Virus record (IMG/VR): IMGVR_UViG_3300023184_000029
Coordinates: 62,001 to 126,000 of that record
Strand: one strand, 5' to 3'
Length of the DNA: 64,000 nt
Origin: a virus
The notes beneath the pieces are model-generated. The model worked only from the letters and a program-made list of their open reading frames with translations. It had not been told where the DNA came from and did no database searches. Below are positions 15,255 through 33,305 of this stretch, one piece after another (the stretch's first letter is position 1; every line of letters begins with the position of its first letter). The translations under genes were made by a program, and so were the position numbers.

Positions 15255-15340
15255 GACGTAAGTCCTTATGAATACTAAAGTTACGACAAAATTTTGCGGC
15301 CCGGCTCGTCGTAAGTCGTTATGTTGCAAGTACTTACGTC
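15255..15340. repeat. paired-hairpin element A
   Basis: One of 16 copies. Two ~30-bp asymmetric hairpin units (CGTAAGTCnTTAT...AAG...TTACG) lie in inverted orientation around a GC-rich centre (GCGGCCCGGC). This copy lies 3' of the DUF932 gene. Confidence 0.8.
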
Positions 15341-15429
15341 TAGTGAACCGTTTCGCAGCAATCAAAAGAGAAGGCCGCAGCCAGTTTCCCAGCTACGGCC
15401 CTCCCCCTTTTCATCGTGACACGAAAAGA

Positions 15430-16377
15430 TCAGACGGCGTTCGCAAACTCCACTGCGGTATTGAGTGCTTTGACGTTATCAACCCCATTCTGTCCGAACC
15501 AGAGTGAGTCGAGGCGATTGCTCACCGTGCGACCCTTGCTATAGTTCAGATACTCATTGAAGCCATTATAGGCAGCCCACCATGTTCCACGAACATTCGT
15601 AGCACTCTGCTTCGGGCCTTCCACAAGCGTCAAGATTTCATCCATAATATTACGGGTACGAGTCTTGATATCTTCGTCCGGGGTCTTATCAATCCCCAGC
15701 AGAATCTTGACATACTTACGAATATCGTTCTGATTGAAATCCTTAGAGGCGAGGAACCTATACTGTTCCGCAGTCGCCTCGAACTGCACGTTGATATTAT
15801 CCATGATGTCTCGCACGTTATCCAGATTTGTTTTGCTGGAGCGTGTGTGACGAATCCGAATCAACTGGCTGTCCTTGTTGGAGTGGGCAGCAGCGAGAGT
15901 ATTCACGCAGACCACGCGGATCGGAGTATATCCGACGCGGATCGACGTTGTACCGTCGTGGCTGTTACTCAGCAGGATAAACTTGCTCACCTCATCGCCG
16001 GGAACAATTTCGCTGTTCGCACGATTGAGTTGAGCCAACACCCAAACCTTCTCGCCCTCACTGAGCGAACCGGCGGTGTGCAGTTGGCACTCGCCAGCGT
16101 CCAGAAACGGCTGGAACCAATCAAAAGCATCTTGATTCTGGAGAGGGGTATAACGCGGACCCACAACTCCCAGCACCCTATTATCGGTCTTACGGAAAGT
16201 CGCCTTGGCGTTGACTTCCTCGCCTTCCGACGTAAACAACGGCTTCGTACCAACTTCCCAATCCAGACCAGCAGCGGTAATCGCCTCAGAAATAGAGGGA
16301 TTCTCATCGAGCTGCGTACCCTCACCATGCCAAGGGGTAGCACCAACAAACATCATCTTTTCGACCATAGCAGGCAT
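15430..16377 (-). CDS. DUF932 phage/plasmid-like protein
   Basis: 315-aa member of the DUF932 family (phage/plasmid-like protein). The start (MPAMVEKMMFVGATPWHGEG) with the paired W-H-G signature and the later YTPLQNQDAFDWF and GTWWAAYNGFNEYLNY segments are characteristic. Function unknown. The start at 16377 follows AAAGGGTTGATT. Base composition is clearly more GC-rich than the neighbouring AT-rich genes, suggesting a different origin. It has its own promoter and 3' paired-hairpin element. Confidence 0.85.
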   Translation of the reverse strand: MPAMVEKMMFVGATPWHGEGTQLDENPSISEAITAAGLDWEVGTKPLFTSEGEEVNAKATFRKTDNRVLGVVGPRYTPLQNQDAFDWFQPFLDAGECQLHTAGSLSEGEKVWVLAQLNRANSEIVPGDEVSKFILLSNSHDGTTSIRVGYTPIRVVCVNTLAAAHSNKDSQLIRIRHTRSSKTNLDNVRDIMDNINVQFEATAEQYRFLASKDFNQNDIRKYVKILLGIDKTPDEDIKTRTRNIMDEILTLVEGPKQSATNVRGTWWAAYNGFNEYLNYSKGRTVSNRLDSLWFGQNGVDNVKALNTAVEFANAV

Positions 16378-16420
16378 AATCAACCCTTTCGTGTTACTGA
16401 TTCTTCGTTCCGATACGCTG

Positions 16421-16449
16421 ATTCTACCATCTATTATCGGCAGTGTCAA
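16421..16449 (-). promoter_or_regulatory. cassette promoter TTGACA-N17-TAGAAT (CCGATAATAG spacer)
   Basis: Type example of the conserved promoter: TTGACA, CTGCCGATAATAGATGG spacer, TAGAAT. It drives the DUF932 gene 44 nt downstream. Confidence 0.85.
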
Positions 16450-16475
16450 GGGGCAAACTTGCGGAAAAATTTCGT

Positions 16476-16559
16476 GACGCAAGTCGTTGGTATATAAGCA
16501 CTTACGTCGGGCGGGGCCGCCCCGGCTCGTCCTAAGTCTTTTGGTGGCTTAGGTTTAGG
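16476..16559. repeat. paired-hairpin element B
   Basis: Copy with centre GGGGCCGCCCC. The stop codon of the PRTase gene (16532) lies within the right unit. Confidence 0.8.
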
Positions 16560-17041
16560 AGCGGAGCCTTTAGATCACGCACACACCATTTAGATCCTTC
16601 TTCATCCGGCCTATATGAACATTCATCTGGAAGATAGCAATAAATACCCTTGCAAATTGCTCTTGGATATTCATCACTAATAGTATTTTTAATTCTTCTT
16701 ATCGTTTCTCCAGAGCAAATAAGATCATCAATAACCACATATTGAAAAGGAGCAACGCCCTCAGTTCTAAATTCACTGTAGCATTTTTCATCTTTGCGAA
16801 TAATTAAAATGTGTTTATCAAGCAATTCAGCAATTTGTGGAACAACCATCAAACCACTAATACCGCAGCAAGCAATAGTGTCAAACTGATTTTTAATTTT
16901 TCTAAGATCACAAACAGCCTTTATAATTATCTTATTACGCTCTTTATGATTTAGCACACGGCAAGTGTGGCTAGCACCTTGAATAACTTTACCGTCTGGA
17001 GTACGACGAAAATCATCGGGCTTTTGGCTCAAAACATTCAT
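16532..17041 (-). CDS. phosphoribosyltransferase-like protein
   Basis: 169-aa PRTase fold. TIACCGISGLMVVPQIAELL is the early substrate loop and YVVIDDLICSGET the PRPP motif (two acidic residues then CSGET). It differs from the 1.9 kb PRTase, which has GGLIPA and DDICDSGGT. The ATG at 17041 is chosen; the frame extends to 17077 only by reading through the T-arm of the adjacent tRNA-like element. The last codons lie in paired-hairpin element B. Confidence 0.78.
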   Translation of the reverse strand: MNVLSQKPDDFRRTPDGKVIQGASHTCRVLNHKERNKIIIKAVCDLRKIKNQFDTIACCGISGLMVVPQIAELLDKHILIIRKDEKCYSEFRTEGVAPFQYVVIDDLICSGETIRRIKNTISDEYPRAICKGIYCYLPDECSYRPDEEGSKWCVRDLKAPLLNLSHQKT

Positions 17042-17046
17042 ATAAG

Positions 17047-17125
17047 TGTGGATGGCTGGATTCGAACCAGCTTTCAAGAAAGAAAGGATAAAGAAAAGAG
17101 TCTAGTCCCACCTAGAAGCATCCAC
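17047..17125 (-). tRNA. tRNA-like element lacking a normal anticodon arm
   Basis: The acceptor stem (GTGGATG/CATCCAC), D-arm (TCTAG-GTGGGA-CTAGA) and T-arm (GCTGG-TTCGAAT-CCAGC) are all perfect. The anticodon-arm position is instead a ~28-nt pyrimidine-rich tract in which no 5-bp stem with a 7-nt loop can be drawn. It is either a decayed tRNA, a tRNA-like processing signal, or a tRNA with an insertion in the anticodon loop. It lies between two coding genes and may guide 3' cleavage of the upstream mRNA. Confidence 0.6.
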
Positions 17126-17130
17126 AAAAA

Positions 17131-17301
17131 TCAGCAATCATCTTCCGTTATATCAGGATAGTAATTCTTTCCATAAGAAGGAACCTCATCATCTTTTTCT
17201 TCATCCATCCAAGGTTCTTCATCTAGACCAAGATCATCGGCATTTTCTACCAATTCATCATAGTCATAATCATACTTTTCGTAATCATCACTATAACGCA
17301 T
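17131..17301 (-). CDS. acidic hypothetical protein
   Basis: 56-aa protein extremely rich in Asp/Glu/Tyr (YSDDYEKYDYDYDE), which could mimic DNA or bind a basic partner. RBS AAAGGAAGGTTGATT precedes the ATG at 17301; the frame to 17337 lacks an RBS. Promoter is directly upstream. Confidence 0.6.
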   Translation of the reverse strand: MRYSDDYEKYDYDYDELVENADDLGLDEEPWMDEEKDDEVPSYGKNYYPDITEDDC

Positions 17302-17325
17302 AATCAACCTTCCTTTCTTTCCAAC

Positions 17326-17354
17326 ATTATACACCAACCAAACATACTTGTCAA
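17326..17354 (-). promoter_or_regulatory. promoter TTGACA-N17-TATAAT
   Basis: -35 TTGACA (17354-17349), -10 TATAAT (17331-17326), starting immediately after the 3' end of tRNA-Lys. It drives the acidic-protein gene and tRNA-like element. Confidence 0.8.
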
Positions 17355-17355
17355 G

Positions 17356-17428
17356 TGGGGGCGGTGGGACTCAAACCCACGATAAACGGTTTAAAAGACC
17401 GCTACTTTAGTCGCTAAGTTACACCCCC
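17356..17428 (-). tRNA. tRNA-Lys (anticodon TTT)
   Basis: Full cloverleaf with acceptor GGGGGTG/CGCCCCC; anticodon arm loop CTTTTAA gives TTT; T-arm GTGGG-TTTGAGT-CCCAC. CCA is not encoded. It reads AAA, abundant in this AT-rich phage. Confidence 0.93.
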
Positions 17429-17439
17429 AAGGGTTTTCT

Positions 17440-17467
17440 AGTATACCATTCTTTTTTTATTTGTCAA
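17440..17467 (-). promoter_or_regulatory. promoter TTGACA-N16-TATACT for tRNA-Lys
   Basis: -35 TTGACA (17467-17462), T/A-rich spacer, -10 TATACT (17445-17440), between tRNA-Glu and tRNA-Lys. Confidence 0.7.
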
Positions 17468-17468
17468 G

Positions 17469-17540
17469 TGACCCCACGGAGAATCGAACTCCGATCTACA
17501 GCGTGAAAGGCTGTCGTCCTAGCCGTTAGACTATGGGGCC
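17469..17540 (-). tRNA. tRNA-Glu (anticodon TTC)
   Basis: Cloverleaf with acceptor GGCCCCA/TGGGGTC; anticodon stem ACAGC/GCTGT, loop CTTTCAC gives TTC; T-arm CGGAG-TTCGATT-CTCCG. Confidence 0.93.
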
Positions 17541-17580
17541 AGCCATCGCAACTCAAACGTCAGCCTCCGAAGCTTAAAAG

Positions 17581-17656
17581 TAGGGCGTGTACGAGTCGAA
17601 CGTACCTATGATCACCTTATAAGAGTGACGGATGCAACCGGCTTACCTTACGCCCC
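17581..17656 (-). tRNA. tRNA-Ile (anticodon TAT)
   Basis: Acceptor GGGGCGT/ACGCCCT; anticodon stem TCACT/GGTGA, loop CTTATAA gives TAT, reading ATA. ATA is usually rare in GC-rich hosts but common in these phage genes, so this tRNA likely compensates codon usage. Confidence 0.9.
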
Positions 17657-17666
17657 GTGTCTTTCA

Positions 17667-17695
17667 ATCATACTCTACTTATCGGCAAGAGTCAA
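17667..17695 (-). promoter_or_regulatory. promoter TTGACT-N17-TATGAT with GCCGATAAG spacer
   Basis: Carries the conserved spacer word and lies 11 nt upstream of tRNA-Ile, probably co-transcribing Ile and Glu. Confidence 0.7.
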
Positions 17696-17713
17696 GTCTT
17701 GTCTTTAGAAAAT

Positions 17714-17795
17714 CCTAAGTCGTTATCTGATAAGCACTTACGTCAAAAACGGCCCGCCGAATTTTTCCTAAGTCTTTTATTTTCAAATAGTTATA
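17714..17795. repeat. paired-hairpin element C (right unit decayed)
   Basis: Left unit CCTAAGTCGTTAT...ATAAGCACTTACG is nearly perfect. The right unit loses its outer arm where tRNA-Ser begins. Centre AACGGCCCGCCG. Confidence 0.75.
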
Positions 17796-17796
17796 A

Positions 17797-17883
17797 CGGA
17801 ATCTGAGGGATTCGAACCCCCGGAGGATTTTAACCCTCGGCGGTTTAGTAAACCGCTGCCTTAAACCACTCGGCCAAGATTCC
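17797..17883 (-). tRNA. tRNA-Ser with unusual anticodon ACT
   Basis: Type II cloverleaf: acceptor GGAATCT/AGATTCC, D-arm GGCCGAGTGGTTTAAGGC, long variable arm, T-arm GGGGG-TTCGAAT-CCCTC. The anticodon stem GCGGT/ACCGC encloses TTACTAA, giving ACT. Serine identity (long variable arm) agrees with an AGU-reading anticodon. A34 outside tRNA-Arg(ACG) is rare in bacteria and phages, where AGU/AGC is normally read by GCT. Confidence 0.88.
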
Positions 17884-17885
17884 AA

Positions 17886-17957
17886 CTCTGTGAGTAGGAC
17901 TCGAACCTACAACCGGGCGGTTAACAGCCGCCAGCTCTACCATTGAGCTATCACAGA
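17886..17957 (-). tRNA. tRNA-Asn (anticodon GTT)
   Basis: Acceptor TCTGTGA/TCACAGA; anticodon stem GGCGG/CCGCC, loop CTGTTAA gives GTT; T-arm TGTAGG-TTCGAGT-CCTAC. It is 2 nt from tRNA-Ser. Confidence 0.92.
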
Positions 17958-18031
17958 CCATCTTGCTTTCGAACCCGTTTGGTGTATTATACTTTAGGGT
18001 TCGATCAATTATTATAGCTGGATATCTTATA

Positions 18032-18529
18032 ATGTCAATACCAGAATTTAAAATTTGCCCAAAGTGCAAAGAAAAAAAACACAAAACCGAATATCATACA
18101 AGAAAAGACAAAGGATATACTTATCTAAAAAGCTATTGTAAACAATGTTCATCATATACCAAAACTAGAGCAGAAATACTAAAACAACAATATAACTTAT
18201 GTTCTTGTGGTAATATAAAGTCTAAAAAGGGTAAAACTTGTAAATATTGTAGTCGTATAGATCATACAGAACTATTAATAGAAAATTGCAAACACCCTAG
18301 ACGTATTGTTAAAAGAACAATAATTAGAGACAAACTTATAGATCATAAGTGTTCAGAATGTGGAATAACTAATGAATGGAATAATAAGCCTATTGTCTTA
18401 CAACTCGATCATATTAATGGTATAAATAATGATAATAGATTATCTAATTTAAGATTTTTATGCCCTAATTGCCATTCACAGACCGAAACATTTTGTGGTA
18501 GTAATATTAAAAATAAAATGCCCAGGTAG
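18032..18529 (+). CDS. HNH endonuclease inserted in tRNA cluster
   Basis: 165-aa protein. An N-terminal zinc ribbon (CPKCKEKKHKTEYHTRKD, then CKQC) precedes a second Cys cluster (CSCGN...CKYC) and an HNH core LQLDHINGINNDNRLSNLRF followed by LCPNCHSQTETF. This is the free-standing homing-type layout. It runs opposite to all tRNAs, and its last codons overlap the 3' end of tRNA-Gln. The ATG at 18032 is preferred over the longer frame from 17963. The upstream sequence resembles that of the second HNH gene, suggesting a mobile unit with its own promoter. Confidence 0.88.
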   Translation: MSIPEFKICPKCKEKKHKTEYHTRKDKGYTYLKSYCKQCSSYTKTRAEILKQQYNLCSCGNIKSKKGKTCKYCSRIDHTELLIENCKHPRRIVKRTIIRDKLIDHKCSECGITNEWNNKPIVLQLDHINGINNDNRLSNLRFLCPNCHSQTETFCGSNIKNKMPR

Positions 18530-18590
18530 GACTCAAACCTACAACCCGCTGATCCAAAGTCAGCTGCTCTATCAATTAAGCTACTGGGCA
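18518..18590 (-). tRNA. tRNA-Gln (anticodon TTG)
   Basis: Acceptor TGCCCAG/CTGGGCA; anticodon stem GCTGA/TCAGC, loop CTTTGGA gives TTG; T-arm TGTAGG-TTTGAGT-CCTAC. The 3' end overlaps the HNH gene stop on the other strand. Confidence 0.92.
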
Positions 18591-18591
18591 G

Positions 18592-18664
18592 AGCCGATGG
18601 CCGGGAACGATCCGGCGACAGGCAGTTTACAAAACTGCTACTCTACCAACTGAGTTACATCGGC
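18592..18664 (-). tRNA. tRNA-Thr (anticodon TGT)
   Basis: Acceptor GCCGATG/CATCGGC; anticodon stem GCAGT/ACTGC, loop TTTGTAA gives TGT; T-arm GCCGG-ATCGTTC-CCGGC. It reads ACA. One base separates it from tRNA-Gln. Confidence 0.92.
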
Positions 18665-18714
18665 AATCTACCTATTATAATCAATAGTGATAATCCTCGC
18701 AAGCCCGACGCTTT

Positions 18715-19071
18715 TCAGCGGATCGGGTTCGCAACCGCTTGGGGCGATTGTCCATAACGGTATCCCGATGTTCCTTGTGTCCCGTTGACAACTCCCAAGG
18801 CTTCTTGACCTTGACCTTGATTTTGTTGTGGTTGCGTCGTGGGCGAATATCGTCGTTGAGGTGGTGCATAGTCATGCCATATTCCATTGTCGTGTAAATA
18901 AAAAACTTTGTCTATGTTAGGATCATAAGCCATTAGACAGTATTGTATAGGATACACAATCTTTTGTCTAGATGGTATTTTTGGAATTTTTAAATCACCT
19001 TTTTGGTAATCTTTAACGCCAGTATAGGCCAAACCTAACAGAGCAATCAATACCCCAATCCATTGGATCAC
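18715..19071 (-). CDS. membrane-anchored protein with Gln/Pro-rich tail
   Basis: About 118 aa: an N-terminal transmembrane helix (VIQWIGVLIALLGLAYTGVK), a soluble region with PIQYCLMAYDPNIDKVFYLH and IWHDYAPPQRR, then a Gln/Gly-rich low-complexity tail. GTG at 19071 is chosen because it follows AAGGATGG. The ATG at 19098 lies inside the promoter -10, so it could only be used from another transcript. Confidence 0.6.
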   Translation of the reverse strand: MIQWIGVLIALLGLAYTGVKDYQKGDLKIPKIPSRQKIVYPIQYCLMAYDPNIDKVFYLHDNGIWHDYAPPQRRYSPTTQPQQNQGQGQEALGVVNGTQGTSGYRYGQSPQAVANPIR

Positions 19072-19093
19072 GCTGTCCCATCCTTTCCGTTTA

Positions 19094-19122
19094 ATCATAT
19101 CATAGTTATCGGCACTTGTCAA
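19094..19122 (-). promoter_or_regulatory. cassette promoter TTGACA-N17-TATGAT (GCCGATAAC spacer)
   Basis: -35 TTGACA (19122-19117) and -10 TATGAT (19099-19094), directly before the membrane-protein gene. Confidence 0.75.
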
Positions 19123-19139
19123 CCTTTTCTTTAAAAAAT

Positions 19140-19222
19140 CCTAAGTGGTTGAGGCCATTGCACTTACGTCAAATTTGGCCGGCCCCGCTCGCCCTAAGTG
19201 CTTATGCAGTAAGGGTTTGCGG
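19140..19222. repeat. paired-hairpin element D
   Basis: Centre TTGGCCGGCCCC. The right unit ends AAGGGTTTGCGG, the frequent outer-arm form. It lies 7 nt after the stop of the gene 19229-19465. Confidence 0.8.
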
Positions 19223-19228
19223 TTAGTT

Positions 19229-19465
19229 TTAGTCGTTACCTAGCGTCCATCCACCCATCTTTGCGATTACGTTCAGTTTCAAAACTTCCGTTTGCTTATC
19301 AGCAGTTAGATAGTCTCTAAAACCACGCTCATCAATATAGAAGTATTCATCTAATGTATCAAACTTATTACTCTCAAACAAACTTGTAACCGCCGCTTCA
19401 ACAGAACTTTTATCTGTAGAGTAAATTAGTTCCAGAGTACCACACTTGATATAATATTTAGACAT
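19229..19465 (-). CDS. hypothetical protein
   Basis: 78-aa mixed alpha/beta protein (YYIKCGTLELIYSTDKSSVE) with no recognised family. It is last in an operon with the genes to its right and is followed by element D. Confidence 0.65.
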   Translation of the reverse strand: MSKYYIKCGTLELIYSTDKSSVEAAVTSLFESNKFDTLDEYFYIDERGFRDYLTADKQTEVLKLNVIAKMGGWTLGND

Positions 19466-19476
19466 TTTTCAATTCC

Positions 19477-20911: not shown

Positions 20912-20939
20912 ATTCTACACTATATTATCGGCTAGTCAA
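20912..20939 (-). promoter_or_regulatory. cassette promoter TTGACT-N16-TAGAAT (GCCGATAATA spacer)
   Basis: -10 at 20917-20912, 20 nt before the Cys-rich protein start. Confidence 0.82.
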
Positions 20940-20966: not shown

Positions 20967-21051
20967 GATGCAAAGGCTTGTGGCATAAGGACTTACGTCA
21001 AACGGGGCCGCCCGGATTTATCCTAAGTGCTTACTGGCGAAGGGTTTAGAA
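20967..21051. repeat. paired-hairpin element E
   Basis: GATGCAAAG...AAGGACTTACGTC, GC centre GGGGCCGCCCGG, then TCCTAAGTGCTTA...AAGGGTTTAG. It lies between the divergent HNH gene and the 20.9 kb promoter. Confidence 0.8.
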
Positions 21052-21106: not shown

Positions 21107-21592
21107 ATGGTCAATTGTAGACATTGCGGTAAAGAAACAAATAATCCTAATTTTTGCTCTAGATCTTGTGCAGCTAAAACAACTAATAAAATACCTAAAC
21201 GCAAGAAAAAGATTAATCATTGCTCATTGTGTGGCAAAGAGACAGGTTTTTTTAGAAGGAAATTCTGTATAGATTGTAATCCTATGAATAAAGATTGGAA
21301 TTCTATAACTTATGGAGATGCTATCCAAACTCGTAAATATCAAAAGAATTCTAGGATCAGGAATCTATCCAGAAAAATCTATAAATCATCTGGTAAACCA
21401 GAATGTTGCATGATTTGTAAATACGATAAACATTTTGAAGTATGTCATATTAAAGCTATTTCCTCCTTCCCTAAGACTGCAACAGTTGGAGAAATAAATC
21501 ATATAAATAATCTTATAGCTCTTTGTCCCAACCATCATTGGGAATTAGATCATGGAGACTTAATACTGCCGGAAGGATTTGCACCCTCGTAA
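21107..21592 (+). CDS. HNH endonuclease overlapping tRNA-Arg
   Basis: 161-aa protein. Two N-terminal zinc knuckles (CRHCGKETNNPNFCSRSC and CSLCGKETGFFRRKFC) precede the HNH core FEVCHIKAISSFP, then NLIALCPNHHWELDHGDL. RBS TAGGAGATTAAT. Its final codons (LPEGFAPS) are the antisense of the tRNA-Arg 3' half, mirroring the first HNH gene at tRNA-Gln. This is consistent with homing into tRNA genes. Confidence 0.88.
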   Translation: MVNCRHCGKETNNPNFCSRSCAAKTTNKIPKRKKKINHCSLCGKETGFFRRKFCIDCNPMNKDWNSITYGDAIQTRKYQKNSRIRNLSRKIYKSSGKPECCMICKYDKHFEVCHIKAISSFPKTATVGEINHINNLIALCPNHHWELDHGDLILPEGFAPS

Positions 21593-21672: not shown

Positions 21673-21840
21673 GCCCACATGGCGTCCCATGTAGGCTATA
21701 CGGTTTGATGGTGGGATCACTTTACCATCGTAATATTACTAGTAGCAGACCCCTTCCCGGCAACCACGCCGGTTATTAGTTGGTTAGACTCTACTAGGTG
21801 GGTCTGAGCCCACTCCATTACGCGGGACGAATCCCGCCGC
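21673..21840 (-). ncRNA. candidate structured RNA with five hairpins
   Basis: Perfect or G-U stems: ACATGG/CCATGT core (21673-21696), GATGGT/ACCATC (21707-21729), CTAGTAG/CTACTAG (21739-21745 with 21791-21797) enclosing CCGG/CCGG, GTGGG/CCCAC (21798-21813), and GCGGGA/TCCCGC (21822-21837). There is no coding frame. It lies downstream of the 21.9 kb gene and upstream of tRNA-Arg. No known RNA family was recognised. Confidence 0.45.
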
Positions 21841-21887
21841 ACTATGCCTAAAATCTATTTATACTGACATAGTCCAGTTTATCAAGA

Positions 21888-22268: not shown

Positions 22269-22297
22269 ATTCTACCATATAGTATCGTCATCGTCAA
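22269..22297 (-). promoter_or_regulatory. promoter TTGACG-N17-TAGAAT (ACGATACTATATGG spacer)
   Basis: Second, distal promoter ~86 bp upstream of the first. It carries a variant of the spacer word and follows paired-hairpin element F. Confidence 0.75.
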
Positions 22298-22337: not shown

Positions 22338-22423
22338 TTCTAAGTTGTTGAAGTATAAGGAGTTACGTCAAATTTGGCCGGCCCGCCTCGCCGTAAGTGT
22401 TTTACGGACAAGGCTTTAGGTCA
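22338..22423. repeat. paired-hairpin element F
   Basis: Centre TTTGGCCGGCCCGCC. The stop codon of the 22421 gene touches the right unit. Confidence 0.8.
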
Positions 22424-23255: not shown

Positions 23256-23269
23256 GACCCCGTATTCTC

Positions 23270-23317
23270 GCTGACTATCGCCAAGACCACCAAATCCGTA
23301 GGATTAGGAAAGACAAG
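23270..23317 (-). repeat. R element copy 5
   Basis: GCTGACTAT...AAATCC-GTA-GGATT...GACAAG. It terminates a small unit driven by the promoter at 23402-23430, whose only frame is a ~30-codon ORF reading into the repeat. Confidence 0.75.
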
Positions 23318-23401
23318 CAGGCTTCCGCCATACTCGACCAACATTTCAGACAACCTCTTTTGATATCATTGTGGTTGTCCCCACACTTGCTTTCCCGTTT
23401 A

Positions 23402-23430
23402 AGTATACCTCTATTATCGGCAAATGTCAA
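23402..23430 (-). promoter_or_regulatory. cassette promoter TTGACA-N17-TATACT (GCCGATAATAG spacer)
   Basis: Strong conserved promoter followed by ~140 bp without a clear gene before R element copy 5: another apparently empty cassette or small RNA. Confidence 0.78.
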
Positions 23431-23454: not shown

Positions 23455-23541
23455 GAACGTAAGTCTTTTGCGGTCAAGTACTTACAACAAATTTCGCCCG
23501 CCGGATTTCTCCTAAGTCCTTATGCTGTAAGAAGTTACATC
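23455..23541. repeat. paired-hairpin element G
   Basis: GAACGTAAGTC...AAGTACTTACAAC, centre TTCGCCCGCCGG, right unit CCTAAGTCCTTAT...AAGAAGTTACATC. It ends at the stop of the 23541 gene. Confidence 0.8.
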
Positions 23542-24644: not shown

Positions 24645-24673
24645 ATTCTACTATCTATTATCGACACTGTCAA
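24645..24673 (-). promoter_or_regulatory. cassette promoter TTGACA-N17-TAGAAT (TCGATAATAG spacer)
   Basis: Near-identical to the 16.4 kb promoter; 21 nt upstream of the 24370-24624 gene. Confidence 0.85.
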
Positions 24674-24710
24674 GAGGGTTTCTTGAAGAAAAATTTTTAA
24701 GATGTAAAGT

Positions 24711-24787
24711 GTTGTAGCACAAGCAGTTACGACGAGCCGGGCCGCCCCCGTTTGCTCTAAGTCTTTTAGCAGCAAGACTTTATATCT
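24711..24787. repeat. paired-hairpin element H
   Basis: GATGTAAAGTG...GCAGTTACGAC, centre CCGGGCCGCCCCCG, right unit TCTAAGTCTTTTA...AAGACTTTATATC. It overlaps the stop of the 24786 gene. Confidence 0.78.
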
Positions 24788-25566: not shown

Positions 25567-25594
25567 ATTCTACCATCTATTATCGGCTTGTCAA
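25567..25594 (-). promoter_or_regulatory. cassette promoter TTGACA-N16-TAGAAT (GCCGATAATAG spacer)
   Basis: Strong conserved promoter facing the gene-free region, evidence that this region is transcribed. Confidence 0.83.
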
Positions 25595-25620: not shown

Positions 25621-25704
25621 GACGCAAATCGTTTAGAGATAAGGACTTATGTCGAGTTCGGCCGCCCGCCCTATCCCTAAGTTGTTTAAGGATAAGGACT
25701 TACG
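25621..25704. repeat. paired-hairpin element I
   Basis: GACGCAAATCG...AAGGACTTATGTC, centre TTCGGCCGCCCGCC, right unit CCTAAGTTGTTTA...AAGGACTTACG. It abuts the stop of the 25706 gene. Confidence 0.8.
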
Positions 25705-25958: not shown

Positions 25959-25971
25959 GCCCCGACTACTG

Positions 25972-26018
25972 GCTGACTATACCCACTCAACCAACCCGGC
26001 AGGGTTAGGCGGGACAGT
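25972..26018 (-). repeat. R element copy 6
   Basis: GCTGACTAT...AACCC-GGCA-GGGTT...GGGACAG. The inner stem pair is changed on both sides (AATCC/GGATT to AACCC/GGGTT), a compensatory substitution. The stop codon of the 26005 gene is inside. Confidence 0.75.
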
Positions 26019-26154
26019 TATGCGTGATTCTTTCCACGATGATATTATCCCCATAGTGCTTTTCCGCTAATCTAATAGCATGATAGGTACTCTGGGCCTC
26101 GACATAACCCAAAAGCTTATATCCTCTCATTACCATATAAGTATCAGTATTCAC
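26005..26154 (-). CDS. 49-aa hypothetical protein (GTG start)
   Basis: MNTDTYMVMRGYKLLGYVEA... then AIRLAEKHYGDNIIVER, a compact alpha/beta unit. GTG start with a very strong RBS (GGAGGAGG). The last four codons come from R element copy 6. Confidence 0.65.
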   Translation of the reverse strand: MNTDTYMVMRGYKLLGYVEAQSTYHAIRLAEKHYGDNIIVERITHNCPA

Positions 26155-26820: not shown

Positions 26821-26849
26821 AGGATACCATCACTATCGGCAGTTGTCAA
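26821..26849 (-). promoter_or_regulatory. cassette promoter TTGACA-N17-TATCCT (GCCGATAGTG spacer)
   Basis: Conserved -35 and spacer with a weaker -10 (TATCCT); 42 nt upstream of the nuclease-like gene. Confidence 0.7.
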
Positions 26850-26865: not shown

Positions 26866-26950
26866 ATCGTAAACCCATATGGCTTAAGGAGTTGCGTCAA
26901 ATTCGGCCCGCCGCCCGCGTCCTAAGTCCTTTGGTGTCAAAGGGTTAGGA
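26866..26950. repeat. paired-hairpin element J
   Basis: The left unit is the most diverged. The centre is TTCGGCCCGCCGCCCG and the right unit CCTAAGTCCTTTG...AAAGGGTTAGG. Confidence 0.72.
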
Positions 26951-27771: not shown

Positions 27772-27800
27772 ATTCTACCATCTATTATCGACCAATGCAA
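27772..27800 (-). promoter_or_regulatory. cassette promoter TTGCAT-N17-TAGAAT (TCGATAATAG spacer)
   Basis: -35 weakened to TTGCAT but the spacer word and -10 are intact. Confidence 0.78.
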
Positions 27801-27836
27801 GAGGGAATCTTGAGAAAATTTTTTTAGACGTAAAGT

Positions 27837-27911
27837 GTTGATACATAAAGAGTTACGTCAAATTTTTGCGGCCCCGCTCGCCCTAAGTCGTTATCTGACA
27901 AGGGTTTGCGG
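27837..27911. repeat. paired-hairpin element K
   Basis: GACGTAAAGTG...AGAGTTACGTC, centre TTGCGGCCCCGC, right unit CCTAAGTCGTTAT...AAGGGTTTGCGG. Confidence 0.8.
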
Positions 27912-28662: not shown

Positions 28663-28666
28663 GAGA

Positions 28667-28873: not shown

Positions 28874-28899
28874 CTTTCACTCTCTCTTTCTCTCACTCT

Positions 28900-28928: not shown

Positions 28929-28948
28929 ATGCCTTTTCTTGAATCTTT

Positions 28949-29122: not shown

Positions 29123-29159
29123 TGGTATTTTCCTTAGTGGTTTCCCTTGTGATGCTGTC

Positions 29160-29187
29160 ATTCTACAGTGTTTATCGGCCAATGCAA
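29160..29187 (-). promoter_or_regulatory. cassette promoter TTGCAT-N16-TAGAAT (GGCCGATAAAC spacer)
   Basis: Conserved spacer word with a weakened -35. Confidence 0.75.
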
Positions 29188-29218
29188 GGTAAATCTTTGG
29201 AATTTTTTAAATATAATT

Positions 29219-29251
29219 CTGTGCCAAACGGGAAATATTTTTGTGGCACAG
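29219..29251. other. auxiliary hairpin CTGTGCCA/TGGCACAG
   Basis: 8-bp perfect stem with an A/T-rich loop (AATATTTT). It lies between paired-hairpin element L and the promoter. Related hairpins occur at the same place near elements O and P. Confidence 0.6.
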
Positions 29252-29269
29252 CTTTTGCGTCGATGCTCG

Positions 29270-29353
29270 TCGTAAGTCTATGCTATCAAAGTAGTTACGA
29301 TTCGCGGGGCCGCCCCGGTTTGCCCTAAGTCTTTATAGGGCAAGGGTTTGCGT
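29270..29353. repeat. paired-hairpin element L
   Basis: CGTAAGTCTATGC...AGTAGTTACG, centre CGGGGCCGCCCCGG (perfect palindrome core), right unit CCTAAGTCTTTAT...AAGGGTTTGCG. Confidence 0.8.
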
Positions 29354-29430
29354 TAAGAATTTACAATCCAAGCAACCAAGCAACCAGCCACAAAAGAAAT
29401 GGTAAGAATGATAGAATCCGAATTAATCAT
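29353..29430 (-). CDS. 25-aa membrane microprotein
   Basis: MINSDSIILTISFVAGCLVA plus WIVNS is a single transmembrane helix. It overlaps the upstream gene by 8 nt, and its stop lies at the edge of element L. Confidence 0.5.
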   Translation of the reverse strand: MINSDSIILTISFVAGCLVAWIVNS

Positions 29431-29539
29431 TATTATCCTCGCTATTCCTTACATAAAAAACCAAATCAGAAACAAACCAAGAACACAACACGCCAGCAAC
29501 AAATCCCACACCTATTTGTACCCAGTTAATATCGACCAT
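29423..29539 (-). CDS. 38-aa single-pass membrane microprotein
   Basis: MVDINWVQIGVGFVAGVLCS continues as a helix to WFVSDLVFYV and ends with an acidic tail. The G-x-G-x-x-A-G pattern resembles that of the next microprotein (SFVAGCLVAW), suggesting a duplicated pair. Confidence 0.55.
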   Translation of the reverse strand: MVDINWVQIGVGFVAGVLCSWFVSDLVFYVRNSEDNND

Positions 29540-29558
29540 CCTTGTCGCCTTTCTTTAA

Positions 29559-29789
29559 TTATGCGGGGTTCAAAGCATTATCCGCAAGAGTAGTAATCTT
29601 AGACCAAGCAGAATCCACAGTATTATCATCACGCAAATAAATTGTATGCTGATCGCCGGGAATATCACTAATAATAGAAACTTGCCAACCACAAGGGGTA
29701 GACCAACCACAACCCGAACGAGTAATAATAACCTCACAACCCTCAAGGTAAGTATCGGTCAATTCTCTAATTTGTTCAACAGTAATCAT
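29559..29789 (-). CDS. conserved-looking small protein
   Basis: 76-aa protein (MITVEQIRELTDTYLEGCEV ... GWQVSIISDIPGDQHTIYL), alpha then beta. No family named. It is central to a five-gene operon of mostly membrane microproteins. Confidence 0.68.
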   Translation of the reverse strand: MITVEQIRELTDTYLEGCEVIITRSGCGWSTPCGWQVSIISDIPGDQHTIYLRDDNTVDSAWSKITTLADNALNPA

Positions 29790-29798
29790 TTTTATTCC

Positions 29799-29938
29799 TT
29801 ATTCTTCCAATACTGATTTTGCAGATAATTATCAACAACACCAAAAGCCTGAGCAAACAACCAGAAAGCCACGTTAGCAAAAGCATACATGGCAAGGATA
29901 GTAAAAATCCAAGCATTTATAATGATAATATTGGTCAT
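29799..29938 (-). CDS. 48-aa membrane microprotein
   Basis: MTNIIIINAWIFTILAMYAF is followed by a second hydrophobic segment (ANVAFWLFAQAFGVV) and a polar tail. ATGA overlap with the upstream gene. Confidence 0.55.
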
Positions 29939-30063
29939 TTTCCAACCTTCTCTTTCTTCTGCATCATTTCCAGATAGAGTTTTTCCAACAACTTAACCTG
30001 TTTAATAGCACGATTAGTTTCCCGATCCATTCTTTCAATAGCTTTTTGATGTGAAGTTTTCAT
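29935..30063 (-). CDS. 42-aa charged helical protein
   Basis: MKTSHQKAIERMDRETNRAI... is a Lys/Glu-rich, coiled-coil-like helix. It is promoter-proximal with RBS GAGGAAAAAAG. Confidence 0.58.
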   Translation of the reverse strand: MKTSHQKAIERMDRETNRAIKQVKLLEKLYLEMMQKKEKVGK

Positions 30064-30092
30064 TTCTTTTTTCCTCTACTTCTTATATCGAC

Positions 30093-30120
30093 ATTCTACC
30101 GTCTAATCTTTAGTTGTCAA
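30093..30120 (-). promoter_or_regulatory. promoter TTGACA-N16-TAGAAT
   Basis: -35 TTGACA (30120-30115), -10 TAGAAT (30098-30093). The spacer has AAAGATTAGA instead of CCGATAAT. Confidence 0.78.
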
Positions 30121-30161
30121 CTAGAAAATTTTCTTGCAATATTGAAAGGTTCCCCTAGCTT

Positions 30162-30209
30162 GCTGACTATACCCAGCTTGCCCAAATCCGCAGGATTAGC
30201 TGAGACTAT
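30162..30209 (-). repeat. R element copy 7
   Basis: GCTGACTAT...AAATCC-GCA-GGATT...GCTGAGACTAT; the most complete copy, with intact direct repeats GCTGACTAT and GCTGAGACTAT. It lies 3' of the 30234 gene. Confidence 0.78.
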
Positions 30210-30233
30210 CAACAATCCCCAGATGACAGGAGA

Positions 30234-30383
30234 CTATGCCGCCTCACCATCATCATAACCGGGGATATAATCCGGTTCGGAATCATACGAAACAACTTCA
30301 CAATGTTCGCCACAATCTGGGCAAATCCCATGATCCATCATGATACCATCCATCTCATACCCACAGCAATCCGAAACCATCAT
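30234..30383 (-). CDS. 49-aa zinc-ribbon protein
   Basis: SDCCGYEMDGIMMDHGICPD followed by CGEHCE is the same ribbon as at 28667-28873, and the tail EPDYIPGYDDGE matches the tail of the 32724-32906 product. It looks like a recombinant of two phage modules. Confidence 0.65.
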   Translation of the reverse strand: MMVSDCCGYEMDGIMMDHGICPDCGEHCEVVSYDSEPDYIPGYDDGEAA

Positions 30384-30434
30384 GTCTTCCATTCTCTTAT
30401 CCTTCTTTCTTTCTGTCTTACTTCTTATATCGAC

Positions 30435-30463
30435 ATTATACCATGTTCATCTTGAGCTTTCAA
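30435..30463 (-). promoter_or_regulatory. promoter TTGAAA-N17-TATAAT
   Basis: Perfect -10 and near-consensus -35, without the CCGATAAT word. A purine-rich leader follows. Confidence 0.72.
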
Positions 30464-30550
30464 GAGAAATCCAGAAATTTTATTGTCAAAAGATTTTGAC
30501 AAAACTTTTCGTAATTTTGTGGAGGTTTGGCACACCATTTGCTAAGTTGT

Positions 30551-30632
30551 CGTAAAGTCTTATGGGGTAAGAACTTACATCAAGCCCGGCCCGCCCCGTT
30601 TGTCGTAAGTCTTTATATGGCAAGCACTTAGG
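30551..30632. repeat. paired-hairpin element M
   Basis: CGTAAAGTCTTAT...AAGAACTTACATC, centre CCCGGCCCGCCCCG, right unit CGTAAGTCTTTAT...AAGCACTTAGG. The stop of the 30628 gene is inside the right unit. Confidence 0.78.
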
Positions 30633-30813
30633 AGATACTTTGGCGACTGCCTATAATTTCAGCAGCAATGCTTCGAATTAGAGCATCTTTCACTGCCGGA
30701 TTAGTCACGCATTCTTCCGTGAGCCTTTCGGCCAGAGAACATGATGCGTCCATCATTTCCAAAGCACCTTGCAAGCCAAGGCTCATCCAAATTTTTTCCA
30801 TCGGTGAGAACAT
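30628..30813 (-). CDS. hypothetical helical protein
   Basis: 61-aa helical protein (MEKIWMSLGLQGALEMMDAS ...). It follows the next gene by 12 nt and shares its promoter. No motif recognised. Confidence 0.65.
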   Translation of the reverse strand: MFSPMEKIWMSLGLQGALEMMDASCSLAERLTEECVTNPAVKDALIRSIAAEIIGSRQSIS

Positions 30814-30825
30814 TTGTATAGCCTT

Positions 30826-31038
30826 TCAATTCCATCCAAAGTTTTGATCGAGAAACGGTCCGTAGATCATACCCTCATCGATCCAGCACTCATTCAGTTT
30901 CGAGGTAGTGGCATCGAACCGAACACAATACATAGCTACCCTGTCCCCGATTGCTGGCAGGATGTTCACCACCACAGCCCACGCCAGATCGGCACCAATC
31001 CTTGAACCAACCTGAACCCTATCACCAATTTGAATCAT
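30826..31038 (-). CDS. small SH3-like hypothetical protein
   Basis: 70-aa protein: MIQIGDRVQVGSRIGADLAW, VVVNILPAIGDRVAMYCVRF, then WIDEGMIYGPF. It looks like a small beta-barrel (SH3/KOW-like) from the repeated G-D-R-V strands. Start 31038 chosen over 31092, which overlaps the promoter. Confidence 0.65.
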   Translation of the reverse strand: MIQIGDRVQVGSRIGADLAWAVVVNILPAIGDRVAMYCVRFDATTSKLNECWIDEGMIYGPFLDQNFGWN

Positions 31039-31063
31039 TCTGTTCTCTCTTTCTTGTGTTGGT

Positions 31064-31092
31064 ATTCTAGCGAAGTTTTTTCTGATCGTCAA
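31064..31092 (-). promoter_or_regulatory. promoter TTGACG-N17-TAGAAT
   Basis: -10 at 31069-31064; the -35 lies 7 bp from the stop of the upstream gene. No CCGATAAT word. Confidence 0.72.
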
Positions 31093-31098
31093 CCCCCA

Positions 31099-31305
31099 CT
31101 ATCGGGTGGTCGCACCGTTCGCTTTGGCATACCGATACAACGCTCGCTCGTCCACCATGAAACGCTGAACACCCTTCAAATCCTTGAAATCCCAATGGTA
31201 GGTGAGAACGTCAGAGCTGACCATCCAACGGGCTTCGATGCTCGAAGTCTTCTTCAGCGTATAGCCCAACTTCTTCAACTCTTTCTCAATCGTCTTGCTA
31301 TTCAT
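31099..31305 (-). CDS. hypothetical protein
   Basis: 68-aa basic protein (MNSKTIEKELKKLGYTLKKT ... FMVDERALYRYAKANGATTR). Its own promoter and a (GA)-rich leader precede it. No family recognised. Confidence 0.65.
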   Translation of the reverse strand: MNSKTIEKELKKLGYTLKKTSSIEARWMVSSDVLTYHWDFKDLKGVQRFMVDERALYRYAKANGATTR

Positions 31306-31334
31306 CTTTCTCTCTCTTTCTTTCTTGTGCTATC

Positions 31335-31363
31335 ATTATACCAGTATTATCGTCCAATGTCAA
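31335..31363 (-). promoter_or_regulatory. cassette promoter TTGACA-N17-TATAAT (GACGATAATACTGG spacer)
   Basis: Perfect hexamers and a close variant of the spacer word. Confidence 0.84.
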
Positions 31364-31385
31364 TAGCCTAGATCAGAAAAAGTTT

Positions 31386-31403
31386 CCTTACAATGCTGTA
31401 AGG
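31386..31403. other. small perfect hairpin CCTTAC-N6-GTAAGG
   Basis: 6-bp perfect inverted repeat 23 bp upstream of the promoter -35; the same hairpin stem occurs at 31997-32014 in the next cassette. Operator or end structure. Confidence 0.5.
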
Positions 31404-31479
31404 TTGGAGAAGCAAGTTTGGCACAGGATTTGCTAGTGATCAGAATATAGGCAGAAACGCCTAATATGTAAGCATTGAA

Positions 31480-31563
31480 CCTAAGTTGTTGGTATATAAG
31501 CACTTACGTCAAATTTGGCGGCGAAAAATCGCCGTAAGTCCTTTGGTAGCAAGGCTTTACGTC
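31480..31563. repeat. paired-hairpin element N
   Basis: CCTAAGTTGTTGG...AAGCACTTACGTC, centre replaced by a perfect CGGCGA-AAAA-TCGCCG hairpin, right unit CGTAAGTCCTTTG...AAGGCTTTACGTC. It shows that the centre conserves palindromy rather than sequence. Confidence 0.82.
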
Positions 31564-31590
31564 GAGTTTTTTTGTACAGTGTACGGAAGA

Positions 31591-31920
31591 TCACCCCTCC
31601 GAAAAGGGGGATACTTCCTCTCCACAAGCAAGAATCGCGGTATATTGCGATTCCAGAGCAGCAACCCTTTCGGCAGAACCCGGCTTGCCAACTCTCACAA
31701 TCATGCGATCCTCACCCCCCACAAGGCGGGGATCGGCCTTTTCCTTGCGAATCTTGCCCAGATTCTTTAGGGCTTTACGATTGAACTTCAGCACCTTCTC
31801 ACTACGGATTGGGCCATACACCCCATCCGCAAGGGAGGGTTGGTGAGGAATCGCAATCCCGAGGAAGCACAGTCTGGCTTGACGCTTGGCGTTTTCGACG
31901 ATAGGGAACTTGGTTTTCAT
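31591..31920 (-). CDS. hypothetical basic protein
   Basis: 109-aa protein with LCFLGIAIPHQPSLADGVYG, KFNRKALKNLGKIRKEKADP and an AILACGEEVSPF end. No family recognised. Single-gene cassette with GA-rich leader; GC-richer than average here. Confidence 0.65.
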   Translation of the reverse strand: MKTKFPIVENAKRQARLCFLGIAIPHQPSLADGVYGPIRSEKVLKFNRKALKNLGKIRKEKADPRLVGGEDRMIVRVGKPGSAERVAALESQYTAILACGEEVSPFSEG

Positions 31921-31949
31921 TTTCTTTCTCTCTTTCTTCTTATACCGAC

Positions 31950-31977
31950 ATTATACAGGCTTTTCTTTAGGTTGCAA
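31950..31977 (-). promoter_or_regulatory. promoter TTGCAA-N16-TATAAT
   Basis: Perfect -10 (31955-31950), -35 TTGCAA; spacer lacks the conserved word. Confidence 0.7.
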
Positions 31978-31996
31978 GCGAAATCTTTGGTAGTTT

Positions 31997-32014
31997 CCTT
32001 ACAATATCGTAAGG
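31997..32014. other. small perfect hairpin CCTTAC-N6-GTAAGG (second copy)
   Basis: Same stem and loop length as 31386-31403, again just upstream of a promoter -35 on the - strand. Confidence 0.5.
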
Positions 32015-32027
32015 TTTCCCACAGCAA

Positions 32028-32069
32028 ATATCGTGCCAAAAAAGAATATTTTACTTTGGCATACGATAT
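32028..32069. other. auxiliary hairpin with 13-bp stem (ATATCGTGCCAAA...TTTGGCA..CGATAT)
   Basis: 13 paired bases with a 2-nt bulge and an A/T-rich loop, between element O and the 31.97 kb promoter. It is related by position and the GCCAAA/TTTGGC core to the hairpin at 29219 and to a weaker one near 33172-33201. Confidence 0.6.
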
Positions 32070-32081
32070 GCGTCCAAACTT

Positions 32082-32167
32082 GACGTAAGTCGTTGCAGCA
32101 TAAGTACTTAGAGAAAATTTTGCGGCGAAAATTTGTCGTAACTCCTTATGGGCTAAGGGTTTGCGAC
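32082..32167. repeat. paired-hairpin element O
   Basis: GACGTAAGTCGTTGC...AAGTACTTAGAG, centre TTTTGCGGCGAAAATT, right unit CGTAACTCCTTAT...AAGGGTTTGCG. The stop of the 32146 gene lies in the right unit. Confidence 0.78.
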
Positions 32168-32322
32168 TCGTTTTTCCACCTATACAGTAGTTCAGCACAC
32201 AATTCCTTAATACTATTTTTAATATTTTCTTTATCTGATTCGCTCAAAGCATATTGCAAACGAATTTGCTCAATCCTTAAAGCGGTTTGTACTGTACATT
32301 TGCTTAGTTGAGAAACTTTCAT
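32146..32322 (-). CDS. 58-aa helical protein
   Basis: MKVSQLSKCTVQTALRIEQI ... is a charged helical protein; the C-terminal residues (QTLSP) are encoded by paired-hairpin element O. No family recognised. A competing frame at 31917-32198 spans a promoter and repeat and is rejected. Confidence 0.58.
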   Translation of the reverse strand: MKVSQLSKCTVQTALRIEQIRLQYALSESDKENIKNSIKELCAELLYRWKNESQTLSP

Positions 32323-32336
32323 TTGAACACCTATTC

Positions 32337-32555
32337 TTATTTAGCATGAAAAAAAACATTCTCATTACCAACAGTCTTATTAGTAATGGTCACAATCCAA
32401 TTCTTTCCGCTGCCATCTTCACGCATCACACAATTGATAATACCAACATGGGCATTTCCCTTAGTGTCGATAACACACCCATACTTACCCGTTCGCATAG
32501 CAGAGAAAATCTTGTCGAGGTTATTCACTACCGGTTTATAAGCTGTTGCAAACAT
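32337..32555 (-). CDS. hypothetical protein
   Basis: 72-aa protein (MRTGKYGCVIDTKGNAHVGI ... KNWIVTITNKTVGNENVFF), beta-rich. No family. Middle gene of a four-gene operon. Confidence 0.62.
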   Translation of the reverse strand: MFATAYKPVVNNLDKIFSAMRTGKYGCVIDTKGNAHVGIINCVMREDGSGKNWIVTITNKTVGNENVFFHAK

Positions 32556-32571
32556 TAGTATTCACCCAAAG

Positions 32572-32711
32572 TAAAAGAAAGGAACGTAAACAAAAAGATA
32601 GACGGCCCAACCGATTAGAAACACTTGAATACCCAAGCCACTAATCATTCCGAAAGTATCCACATCATCGGGATGCTCACCAAACAAATTGTAGCAGATC
32701 CAGTTTTTCAT
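32572..32711 (-). CDS. 49-aa membrane microprotein
   Basis: A polar N-terminus (FGEHPDDVDTFG) is followed by ISGLGIQVFLIGWAVYLFVY, a transmembrane helix. RBS GGAAAAGAAA. Confidence 0.55.
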
Positions 32712-32723
32712 TTTCTTTTCCTT

Positions 32724-32906
32724 TCAAGCAAATTCTTCTTCACCCTGGAAATCGTCCAGCCACTCATCGTTCGTTTCGATGTGCTCATCGGCATCACCCA
32801 TGATCGGATCCCATTCACCATCATCATAGCCTGGGATATAATCGGCCTCATCTCCATATCCCACGATCCATTCCTCGCCGTTTTCGTCAATCATCTTTTC
32901 CATTTT
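32724..32906 (-). CDS. acidic hypothetical protein
   Basis: 60-aa strongly acidic protein (GDEADYIPGYDDGEWDPIMG ...). The DYIPGYDDGE tail motif is shared with 30234-30383. ATG 32906 chosen because the longer frame crosses the promoter. Confidence 0.65.
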   Translation of the reverse strand, partial: KMEKMIDENGEEWIVGYGDEADYIPGYDDGEWDPIMGDADEHIETNDEWLDDFQGEEEFA

Positions 32907-32925
32907 CATTCTCACTTTCTCTAGT

Positions 32926-32954
32926 ATTCTACTAAGATATTTTCTATTCGTCAA
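32926..32954 (-). promoter_or_regulatory. promoter TTGACG-N17-TAGAAT
   Basis: -10 at 32931-32926; the -35 overlaps the upstream stop codon (32951). No CCGATAAT word. Confidence 0.75.
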
Positions 32955-33079
32955 GCCCGATTCATGAATGAGATAGCCTCGTCGGCACTCTTGAAAATCC
33001 CAAGCAAAATCCTCTTGCCATTCTGGTCGTGATAAACCTTAAACTTCCGGCCAATCTGAATCATCGTGAGCGTGATCAT
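32951..33079 (-). CDS. 42-aa hypothetical protein
   Basis: MITLTMIQIGRKFKVYHDQN ... GIFKSADEAISFMNRA is a compact beta-alpha unit resembling AP2-like or SPOR-like short folds only superficially. It has its own promoter and a purine-rich RBS. Confidence 0.6.
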   Translation of the reverse strand: MITLTMIQIGRKFKVYHDQNGKRILLGIFKSADEAISFMNRA

Positions 33080-33110
33080 TTTCTTTTCTCCCTTTTTCTC
33101 TTGTGCTTTC

Positions 33111-33138
33111 ATTATACAGTGTTTATCGACGCTTTCAA
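33111..33138 (-). promoter_or_regulatory. cassette promoter TTGAAA-N16-TATAAT (GTCGATAAAC spacer)
   Basis: Perfect -10 (33116-33111) with the spacer word TCGATAAAC, matching the 29160 promoter spacer. Confidence 0.78.
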
Positions 33139-33220
33139 GAGAAATCTTTGTAATTTTTCAAATATAATTTCATGCCAAATAAAGATATTTTTATGGTATG
33201 GCCTTTGCGTCAAAAATCGT

Positions 33221-33305
33221 CATAAGTCATTCCCACACAAGCACTTACATCAAATTTTGCGGAGTATAATGATCATAAGTTCTTATACCGTATAGGTTTA
33301 GGGCA
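33221..33305. repeat. paired-hairpin element P
   Basis: Last copy: CATAAGTCATTCC...AAGCACTTACATC, centre TTTTGCGGAGTATAAT, right unit CATAAGTTCTTAT...ATAGGTTTAGG. The array stops here, just before the protease gene. The ~110 bp to 33414 holds a CCTGG/CCAGG stem followed by ATTTTT on the - strand, a possible weak terminator of the protease gene. Confidence 0.72.

Follow-up and report, generated by a model that had tools for sequence, protein, structure and literature searches.

At FIS-dependent promoters of rRNA and tRNA genes, FIS sites lie at -71, -102 and -143 in rrnB P1 and at -71, -91 and -122 in tyrT (PMC2885671). The PeSL modules of T4-like phages (Arbiol 2010, Comeau 2014; cited in PMC4503421) have been described as composites of promoter and terminator that promote shuffling, and the stoperators of mycobacteriophage L5 are single 13-bp asymmetric sites, distributed genome-wide and bound by monomers (PMC9283540). 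Here we describe an 82-bp element repeated sixteen times in the IMG/VR virus record IMGVR_UViG_3300023184_000029, within a window of 64,000 nucleotides that corresponds to bases 62001-126000 of the 186,542-bp record. The copies are probably bipartite operators of a transcription factor that controls presumed early operons. No description of this element was found in the open-licence literature.

Between 13 and 35 kb of the window almost every gene is on the minus strand and is read leftwards, and the 16 copies, named A to P, are placed between successive genes or gene groups of this array, with the terminase, portal and major head protein genes to its right on the plus strand. The GC content of the array region (window 12-35 kb) is 41-43% in the centre compared with 31-33% on both sides. 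The copies aligned without gaps over 88-93 nt, and the element was defined as 82 bp. It is made up of two 29-bp imperfect dyads (approximately CGTAAGTCCTT-N7-AAGGACTTACG) around a core of 22-24 bp with about 70% GC; the left-to-right offset of the units is exactly 53 bp in 16 of 16 copies, and the same offset recurred in 111 of the 127 pairs whose selection did not depend on the search pattern. Both the 7-bp middles of the dyads and the linker were constant in length in all copies. With a position-specific scoring matrix, real copies scored at least 20 and the best match in shuffled sequence reached at most -6. The whole record contained the 16 pairs and three single units just beyond copy A, with no further pair. 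The original prediction, made by a model from the letters of the window, had reported sixteen copies, and all were present on re-scanning and alignment. Its two-unit inverted layout, GC-rich centre and mirror-image outer arms were correct, and 14 of its start positions agreed to within 2-3 bp, while those of H (24711) and K (27837) lay 8 bp too late. The centre, which it called usually palindromic, exceeded chance weakly (mean longest arm 3.84 vs 3.45 in composition shuffles). Stop codons, reported there to lie inside the repeats, were found at or inside the distal edge of eight copies (B, E, F, G, H, I, M and O).

In minus-strand orientation, an A/T tract (AAAAAATTTTTT) and then a sigma70-like promoter come after each copy (Table 1). 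Promoter matches in the region numbered 95 against 45 expected, and strong sigma70-like promoters were 5-17 times denser inside the array than elsewhere in five genomes. Related contigs were gathered through their proteins and with a degenerate DNA pattern, giving, among the matches listed, a comparison set of 311 non-redundant copies on 63 pieces of related phage contigs; further such contigs exist. Copies of one source piece never faced both ways in the 63 pieces, promoters stood on one side only, and the promoter side was predicted from the element sequence alone in 289 of 311 copies when the source in question was left out of training. The distance to the -35 box, measured from four bases past the element, peaked at 14, 24-25, 35 and 46 bp with almost no values between, about one helix turn per step (Rayleigh R 0.54-0.56 for periods of 10.5-11, p ~1e-25). 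When each ortholog cluster contributed a single value per distance, R was 0.59-0.61 (p ~1e-18 or less). Orthologous cassettes with unequal distances differed by 9-11 or 20-23 bp, and therefore indels are tolerated only in whole turns. Helical phasing together with whole-turn indels is the key result of the analysis. By arithmetic from the distances, the promoter-proximal dyad centres of the pairs fall near -67, -78, -88 and -99 from the start site. The gene 3' end had been proposed as the reference point; fixed orientation and helical phasing instead make the promoter on the other side the consistent anchor, and the copies lie at gene 3' ends because each element stands upstream of the next promoter.

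The two units had been described as hairpins. In the 16 window copies 74.4% of cells were paired, compared with 75.7% in shuffles. Stem covariation was also evaluated in 285 copies from 47 source pieces with at least three copies each, shuffled within source. Relative to these shuffles, pairing gave z=-6.8 for the proximal and z=+0.8 for the distal stem, z=-6.3 for the inner-inner arms and z=-3.3 for the outer-outer arms, the negative values meaning that the copies avoid perfect symmetry. Mutual information over all genomes yielded strong inner-inner pairs, which were set aside as they were due to lineage differences and a few wrong-register copies and vanished within genomes. The arms are truly complementary in sequence, but compensatory change does not maintain this complementarity, and the hairpin claim found no covariation in the window copies or in the larger set. 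Because complementary positions do not covary and pair less than chance, the arms are double-stranded half-sites rather than hairpins; constant lengths and absent compensatory pairing are the behaviour of a site in duplex DNA.

Five genomes of 175-233 kb carry one array each, with 15-17 copies over 13-19 kb, and the array genes are colinear across phages (Kendall tau 0.98-1.00). Copies stood upstream of the same orthologous genes in 24 of 35 cases compared with 5 of 61 (Fisher p=8e-10), so that close relatives do carry copies between the same genes, as the proposal of a functional element had required. For example, in the five phages the copy upstream of the GP88-like gene lies at a distance of 77, 78, 84, 65 and 78 nt. 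Among annotated phages the array had no nucleotide match and the portal protein no tblastn match, and a bacterial genome scan returned only scattered single matches and short metagenome-bin contigs that carry several copies and apparently derive from phages. Elements C, E, J and K have one half identical and the other half different when compared with G001 (L046), between near-identical phages, and the break lies within the GC-rich core, as if adjoining DNA had been exchanged there.

Class I, to which most copies belong, has sigma70-like promoters. In these promoters (for example window 16421-16449) conservation extends to the 16-17 bp spacer between -35 and -10 (GCCGATAATAG); this is unusual for a sigma70 promoter, and the spacer is possibly a second operator. 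Class II comprises copies L-P, at the array end near a sigma-factor gene, where the promoter is 65-130 nt away. Beside L-P lies TGGCAC-N5-TTGC, a motif shaped like a sigma54 -24/-12 promoter; 186 kb contain six occurrences of the strict pattern, all of which adjoin the five class II copies. The motif mostly points back into the element, and its orientation varies in other phages. Proteins acting at sigma54 enhancers bind paired dyads, and class II copies likewise stand beside a -24/-12-like motif; unlike sigma54 systems, the class I majority has no such motif and the motif direction is not constant. Shortly upstream of the class II -35 there is also an inverted repeat, CCTTAC-N6-GTAAGG (window 31386-31403; equivalents in G003, G005 and G007).

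Single units add a further arrangement. Among 50 read in context, an extended -10 (TGnTATAnT) followed at 18 nt in 12 and at 17 nt in 3; at these sites the unit end (TTGCG, TTGTG) gives only a poor -35 and the unit centre lies near -45. A second group begins a few bases after the -10 box, represented in the window by the unit after the post-A promoter (Table 1) and by equivalents in G003, G005 and others. The single units at -45 and the pair centres from -67 upwards form a series with steps of about whole turns. Activators of class II bind at -45, and those of class I at stepwise positions from -67 upwards.

Computation thus gives the geometry, direction, helical phase and conserved placement of the copies and their lack of compensatory pairing, and we infer that a protein binds them and regulates the adjoining operons. 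Each 82-bp copy would act in double-stranded DNA as a single directional binding site, with two 29-bp imperfect dyads (half-site ~CGTAAGTCCTT, 7-bp middle) lying exactly 53 bp, or five turns, apart around a GC-rich core. A putative protein, as two dimers or a tetramer, would occupy both dyads, and the bound complex would always occupy the same face of the DNA with respect to the downstream sigma70-like promoter and set initiation at each of about sixteen presumed early operons. It would most likely be an upstream activator of the class I type that cooperates with the AT-rich UP-like tract; its close (class II type) version would be the single units centred near -45 at promoters whose -35 is poor. 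The factor is probably an activator rather than a repressor, a preference that we hold only mildly.

In mechanism, the FIS/UP-element promoter appears to be the nearest parallel. FIS-dependent rRNA and tRNA promoters are likewise very strong sigma70 promoters with, as in class I activation, multiple dyads upstream of the UP element on one helix face, and the helical phasing with the promoter that marks an upstream activator was found for the phage elements. Unlike at FIS promoters, the phage dyads keep a fixed spacing of 53 bp and form a directional site with a long, specific recognition sequence, of which about 16 copies serve a single viral gene array. In setting, PeSL modules and L5 stoperators are nearest. 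PeSLs are likewise intergenic modules that recur in a large tailed phage and are linked to early promoters of the host type, and an early-type promoter adjoins the phage motif; unlike PeSLs as described, the phage elements have no terminator or supported stem-loop, and gene order is conserved. L5 stoperators are repressor sites that likewise occur as many directional copies in promoters and short intergenic gaps (PMC9283540), and the tie between orientation and transcription direction seen in 289/311 phage copies is shared with them. Unlike stoperators, the phage sites are bipartite, 82 bp long, limited to a single array and in helical phase with promoters.

Several observations weigh against operators of an activator. 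Many array promoters are near consensus and should need no activator, about a dozen strong promoters within the array have no element, and 98 of 311 copies have no consensus promoter within 70 nt. Most class II copies have a sigma54-like motif or other repeats between element and distant promoter, and pair 2-28 of the distal unit does covary (z=5.1). The related phages are non-independent samples, though the phase also holds across ortholog clusters. Single units just after start sites suit repression better, and for this reason the preference for activation is mild.

A repressor or shut-off factor could bind both dyads on the RNA polymerase face, locking the polymerase or displacing it from the UP tract, or the copies could act as stoperator-like elongation roadblocks between operons. 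The strength of the promoters without any activator is in keeping with this, as are the single units that follow start sites or overlap the -35, the position of copies between operons and the directional site. Helically phased sites 14 to 46 bp from the -35 are, however, the usual arrangement of an activator, a pure roadblock needs no phase with the following promoter, and the units near -45 go with poor -35 promoters; repression is possible but rather unlikely. An architectural or insulator role, in which the 82 bp are wrapped by a nucleoid-type protein of host or phage that keeps neighbouring operons apart or sets supercoiling and does not contact the polymerase directly, seems improbable. 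The rigid five-turn geometry fits a wrapped complex, the copies stand between operons and DNA bending could produce the helical phase, but an insulator alone needs neither a fixed direction towards the promoter nor single units placed at -45 or downstream of the start site.

That the copies are RNA elements at mRNA 3' ends, with paired hairpins that terminate transcription, protect the ends or are processed, is very improbable. Complementary arms and stop codons that abut or enter the distal edge speak for it, but covariation is absent, the proximal unit pairs significantly less than chance, and loops and linker show no length variation. Terminator-like sites in the region were at chance (14 vs 14.1 expected), no intrinsic terminator (GC-rich stem plus T run) was found on the sense strand within an element, and Rfam had no match within the elements; a hairpin, terminator or mRNA 3'-end element was ruled out on covariation and terminator counts.

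The likeness to REP/BIME pairs (repetitive extragenic palindromic sequences and bacterial interspersed mosaic elements) suggested in the original prediction was also dropped. REP/BIME likewise form inverted pairs of imperfect palindromes between genes; unlike them, the phage elements have rigid spacing, promoter-linked direction and conserved placement but no compensatory pairing, and the 15-17 copies of a genome all lie in a single 13-19 kb array instead of being numerous and scattered. No REP-type transposase (Y1/RAYT, PF01797) scored above cut-off in 15 records, and sub-threshold PF01797 matches lay inside long open frames of ~490-515 aa, which in G000 is a DnaB-like helicase. Overall, the element lacks a defining feature of REP/BIME, of attC and res sites, of intrinsic terminators and of the terminator part of PeSL.

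Site-specific recombination sites (attC-, dif- or res-like) delimiting mobile gene cassettes were an early suspicion, raised by the attC-like layout (R''-L''-L'-R') and the half-swapped copies of the nearest relative. Each cassette has one site in the same direction, some copies of close relatives differ in one half only, and the 53-bp dyad spacing resembles that of res sites I-II of Tn3-type elements. This reading is hardly credible and was dropped: there was no tyrosine recombinase/integrase (PF00589) match in 18 virus records (a host-encoded enzyme is possible) and no serine recombinase/resolvase (PF00239) above cut-off in 15, the attC core boxes RYYYAAC/GTTRRRY were found in 0 of 311 copies, array genes keep their order, and recombination would not impose a promoter phase. 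Integron attC sites and phage clusters of attC sites lacking integron-integrases (CALINs; PMC9892861) likewise place a repeated imperfect palindrome between successive genes; unlike those arrays, the phage array is colinear and not reshuffled.

A gene just ahead of the array encodes a 73-aa core protein with a confident three-helix helix-turn-helix (HTH) fold and invariant basic residues, which had weak matches only in the PDB (small terminase, Myb and sigma54 HTH domains). It is present once each in 15 of 20 array-bearing records; location and co-occurrence tie it to the element as a candidate regulator, and we do not claim it as the binder. A subtilase-family protease gene (33415-34626, minus strand) lies between the array and the sigma-factor gene, with a relative in G009 too. 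Within the array, a Pistol self-cleaving ribozyme was identified at 21816-21878 on the minus strand (Rfam RF02679, 50 bits, well above the gathering score), with GC-rich non-coding sequence upstream of it and a tRNA-Arg nearby. A motif of ~45-65 nt (GCTGACTATCGCCAAGACCGCAAATCCGTAAGATAAGC... on the plus strand, transcribed from the minus strand) is repeated at 14800-14860, 15071-15134, 23256-23319, 25960-26020 and 30148-30211; it resembles a conserved structured RNA and is also found at the array end in G001, G003, G005, G009 and G013. An Rfam search of 14700-15260, the RNA-like repeat region, gave no match. Two open reading frames run opposite to the array genes on the plus strand (18038-18529 and 21107-21592) and are possible homing-type insertions; the first matches an HNH endonuclease and the second is similar by eye only.

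Table 1 Positions in the window of the elements, their promoters and associated features.
Feature	Position	Strand	Remarks
Element A	15257..15338	-	last of array in gene orientation
Element B	16478..16559	-	contains stop codon of phosphoribosyltransferase-like gene
Element C	17714..17795	-	
Element D	19140..19221	-	
Element E	20969..21050	-	upstream of GP88-like gene, placement kept in 4 other phages
Element F	22339..22420	-	
Element G	23458..23539	-	
Element H	24703..24784	-	
Element I	25623..25704	-	
Element J	26868..26949	-	
Element K	27829..27910	-	
Element L	29271..29352	-	class II, sigma54-like motif adjoining
Element M	30551..30632	-	class II
Element N	31480..31561	-	class II, centre replaced by GGCGA/TCGCC
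Element O	32084..32165	-	class II
Element P	33221..33302	-	class II, most diverged copy
Promoter after A	15216..15244	-	TAGACA-N17-TATACT
Promoter after B	16421..16449	-	TTGACA-N17-TAGAAT
Promoter after C	17667..17695	-	TTGACT-N17-TATGAT
Promoter after D	19094..19122	-	TTGACA-N17-TATGAT
Promoter after E	20912..20939	-	TTGACT-N16-TAGAAT
Promoter after F	22269..22297	-	TTGACG-N17-TAGAAT
Promoter after G	23402..23430	-	TTGACA-N17-TATACT
Promoter after H	24645..24673	-	TTGACA-N17-TAGAAT
Promoter after I	25567..25594	-	TTGACA-N16-TAGAAT
Promoter after J	26821..26849	-	TTGACA-N17-TATCCT
Promoter after K	27772..27800	-	TTGCAT-N17-TAGAAT, read from sequence
Promoter after L	29160..29187	-	TTGCAT-N16-TAGAAT, read from sequence
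Promoter after M	30435..30463	-	TTGAAA-N17-TATAAT
Promoter after N	31335..31363	-	TTGACA-N17-TATAAT
Promoter after O	31950..31977	-	TTGCAA-N16-TATAAT
Promoter after P	33111..33138	-	TTGAAA-N16-TATAAT
Sigma54-like motif beside L	29244..29258	+	TGGCAC-N5-TTGC, pointing into element
Sigma54-like motif beside M	30528..30542	+	
Sigma54-like motif beside N	31419..31433	+	
Sigma54-like motif beside O	32057..32071	+	second, opposed one at 32024-32038
Sigma54-like motif beside P	33194..33208	+	degenerate
Single unit	13761..13789	-	17 nt upstream of extended -10 (TGGTATACT), no good -35; same in G009
Single unit	15024..15052	-	18 nt upstream of extended -10 (TGGTATACT)
Single unit	15172..15200	-	just downstream of predicted start of post-A promoter
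Candidate regulator	35085..35306	-	73-aa three-helix HTH protein, RGRP AT-hook-like tail, just ahead of array

For this family of phages of 175-238 kb, we tentatively propose, as an idea that may well prove wrong, that the early programme runs through one regulator of a new type, which would assemble on a rigid 82-bp five-turn site and serve both sigma70-type promoters (class I) and, in the other half of the array, sigma54-like starts pointing back into class II elements. The several hundred natural spacings are a natural experiment on the distance that the bound complex may keep from RNA polymerase, and the copies give a warning that complementary arms need not mean hairpins. The element provides a readable regulatory code for widespread uncultured phages, marking the start, direction and promoter of each presumed early operon, and the control of host take-over in these phages thereby becomes directly testable.

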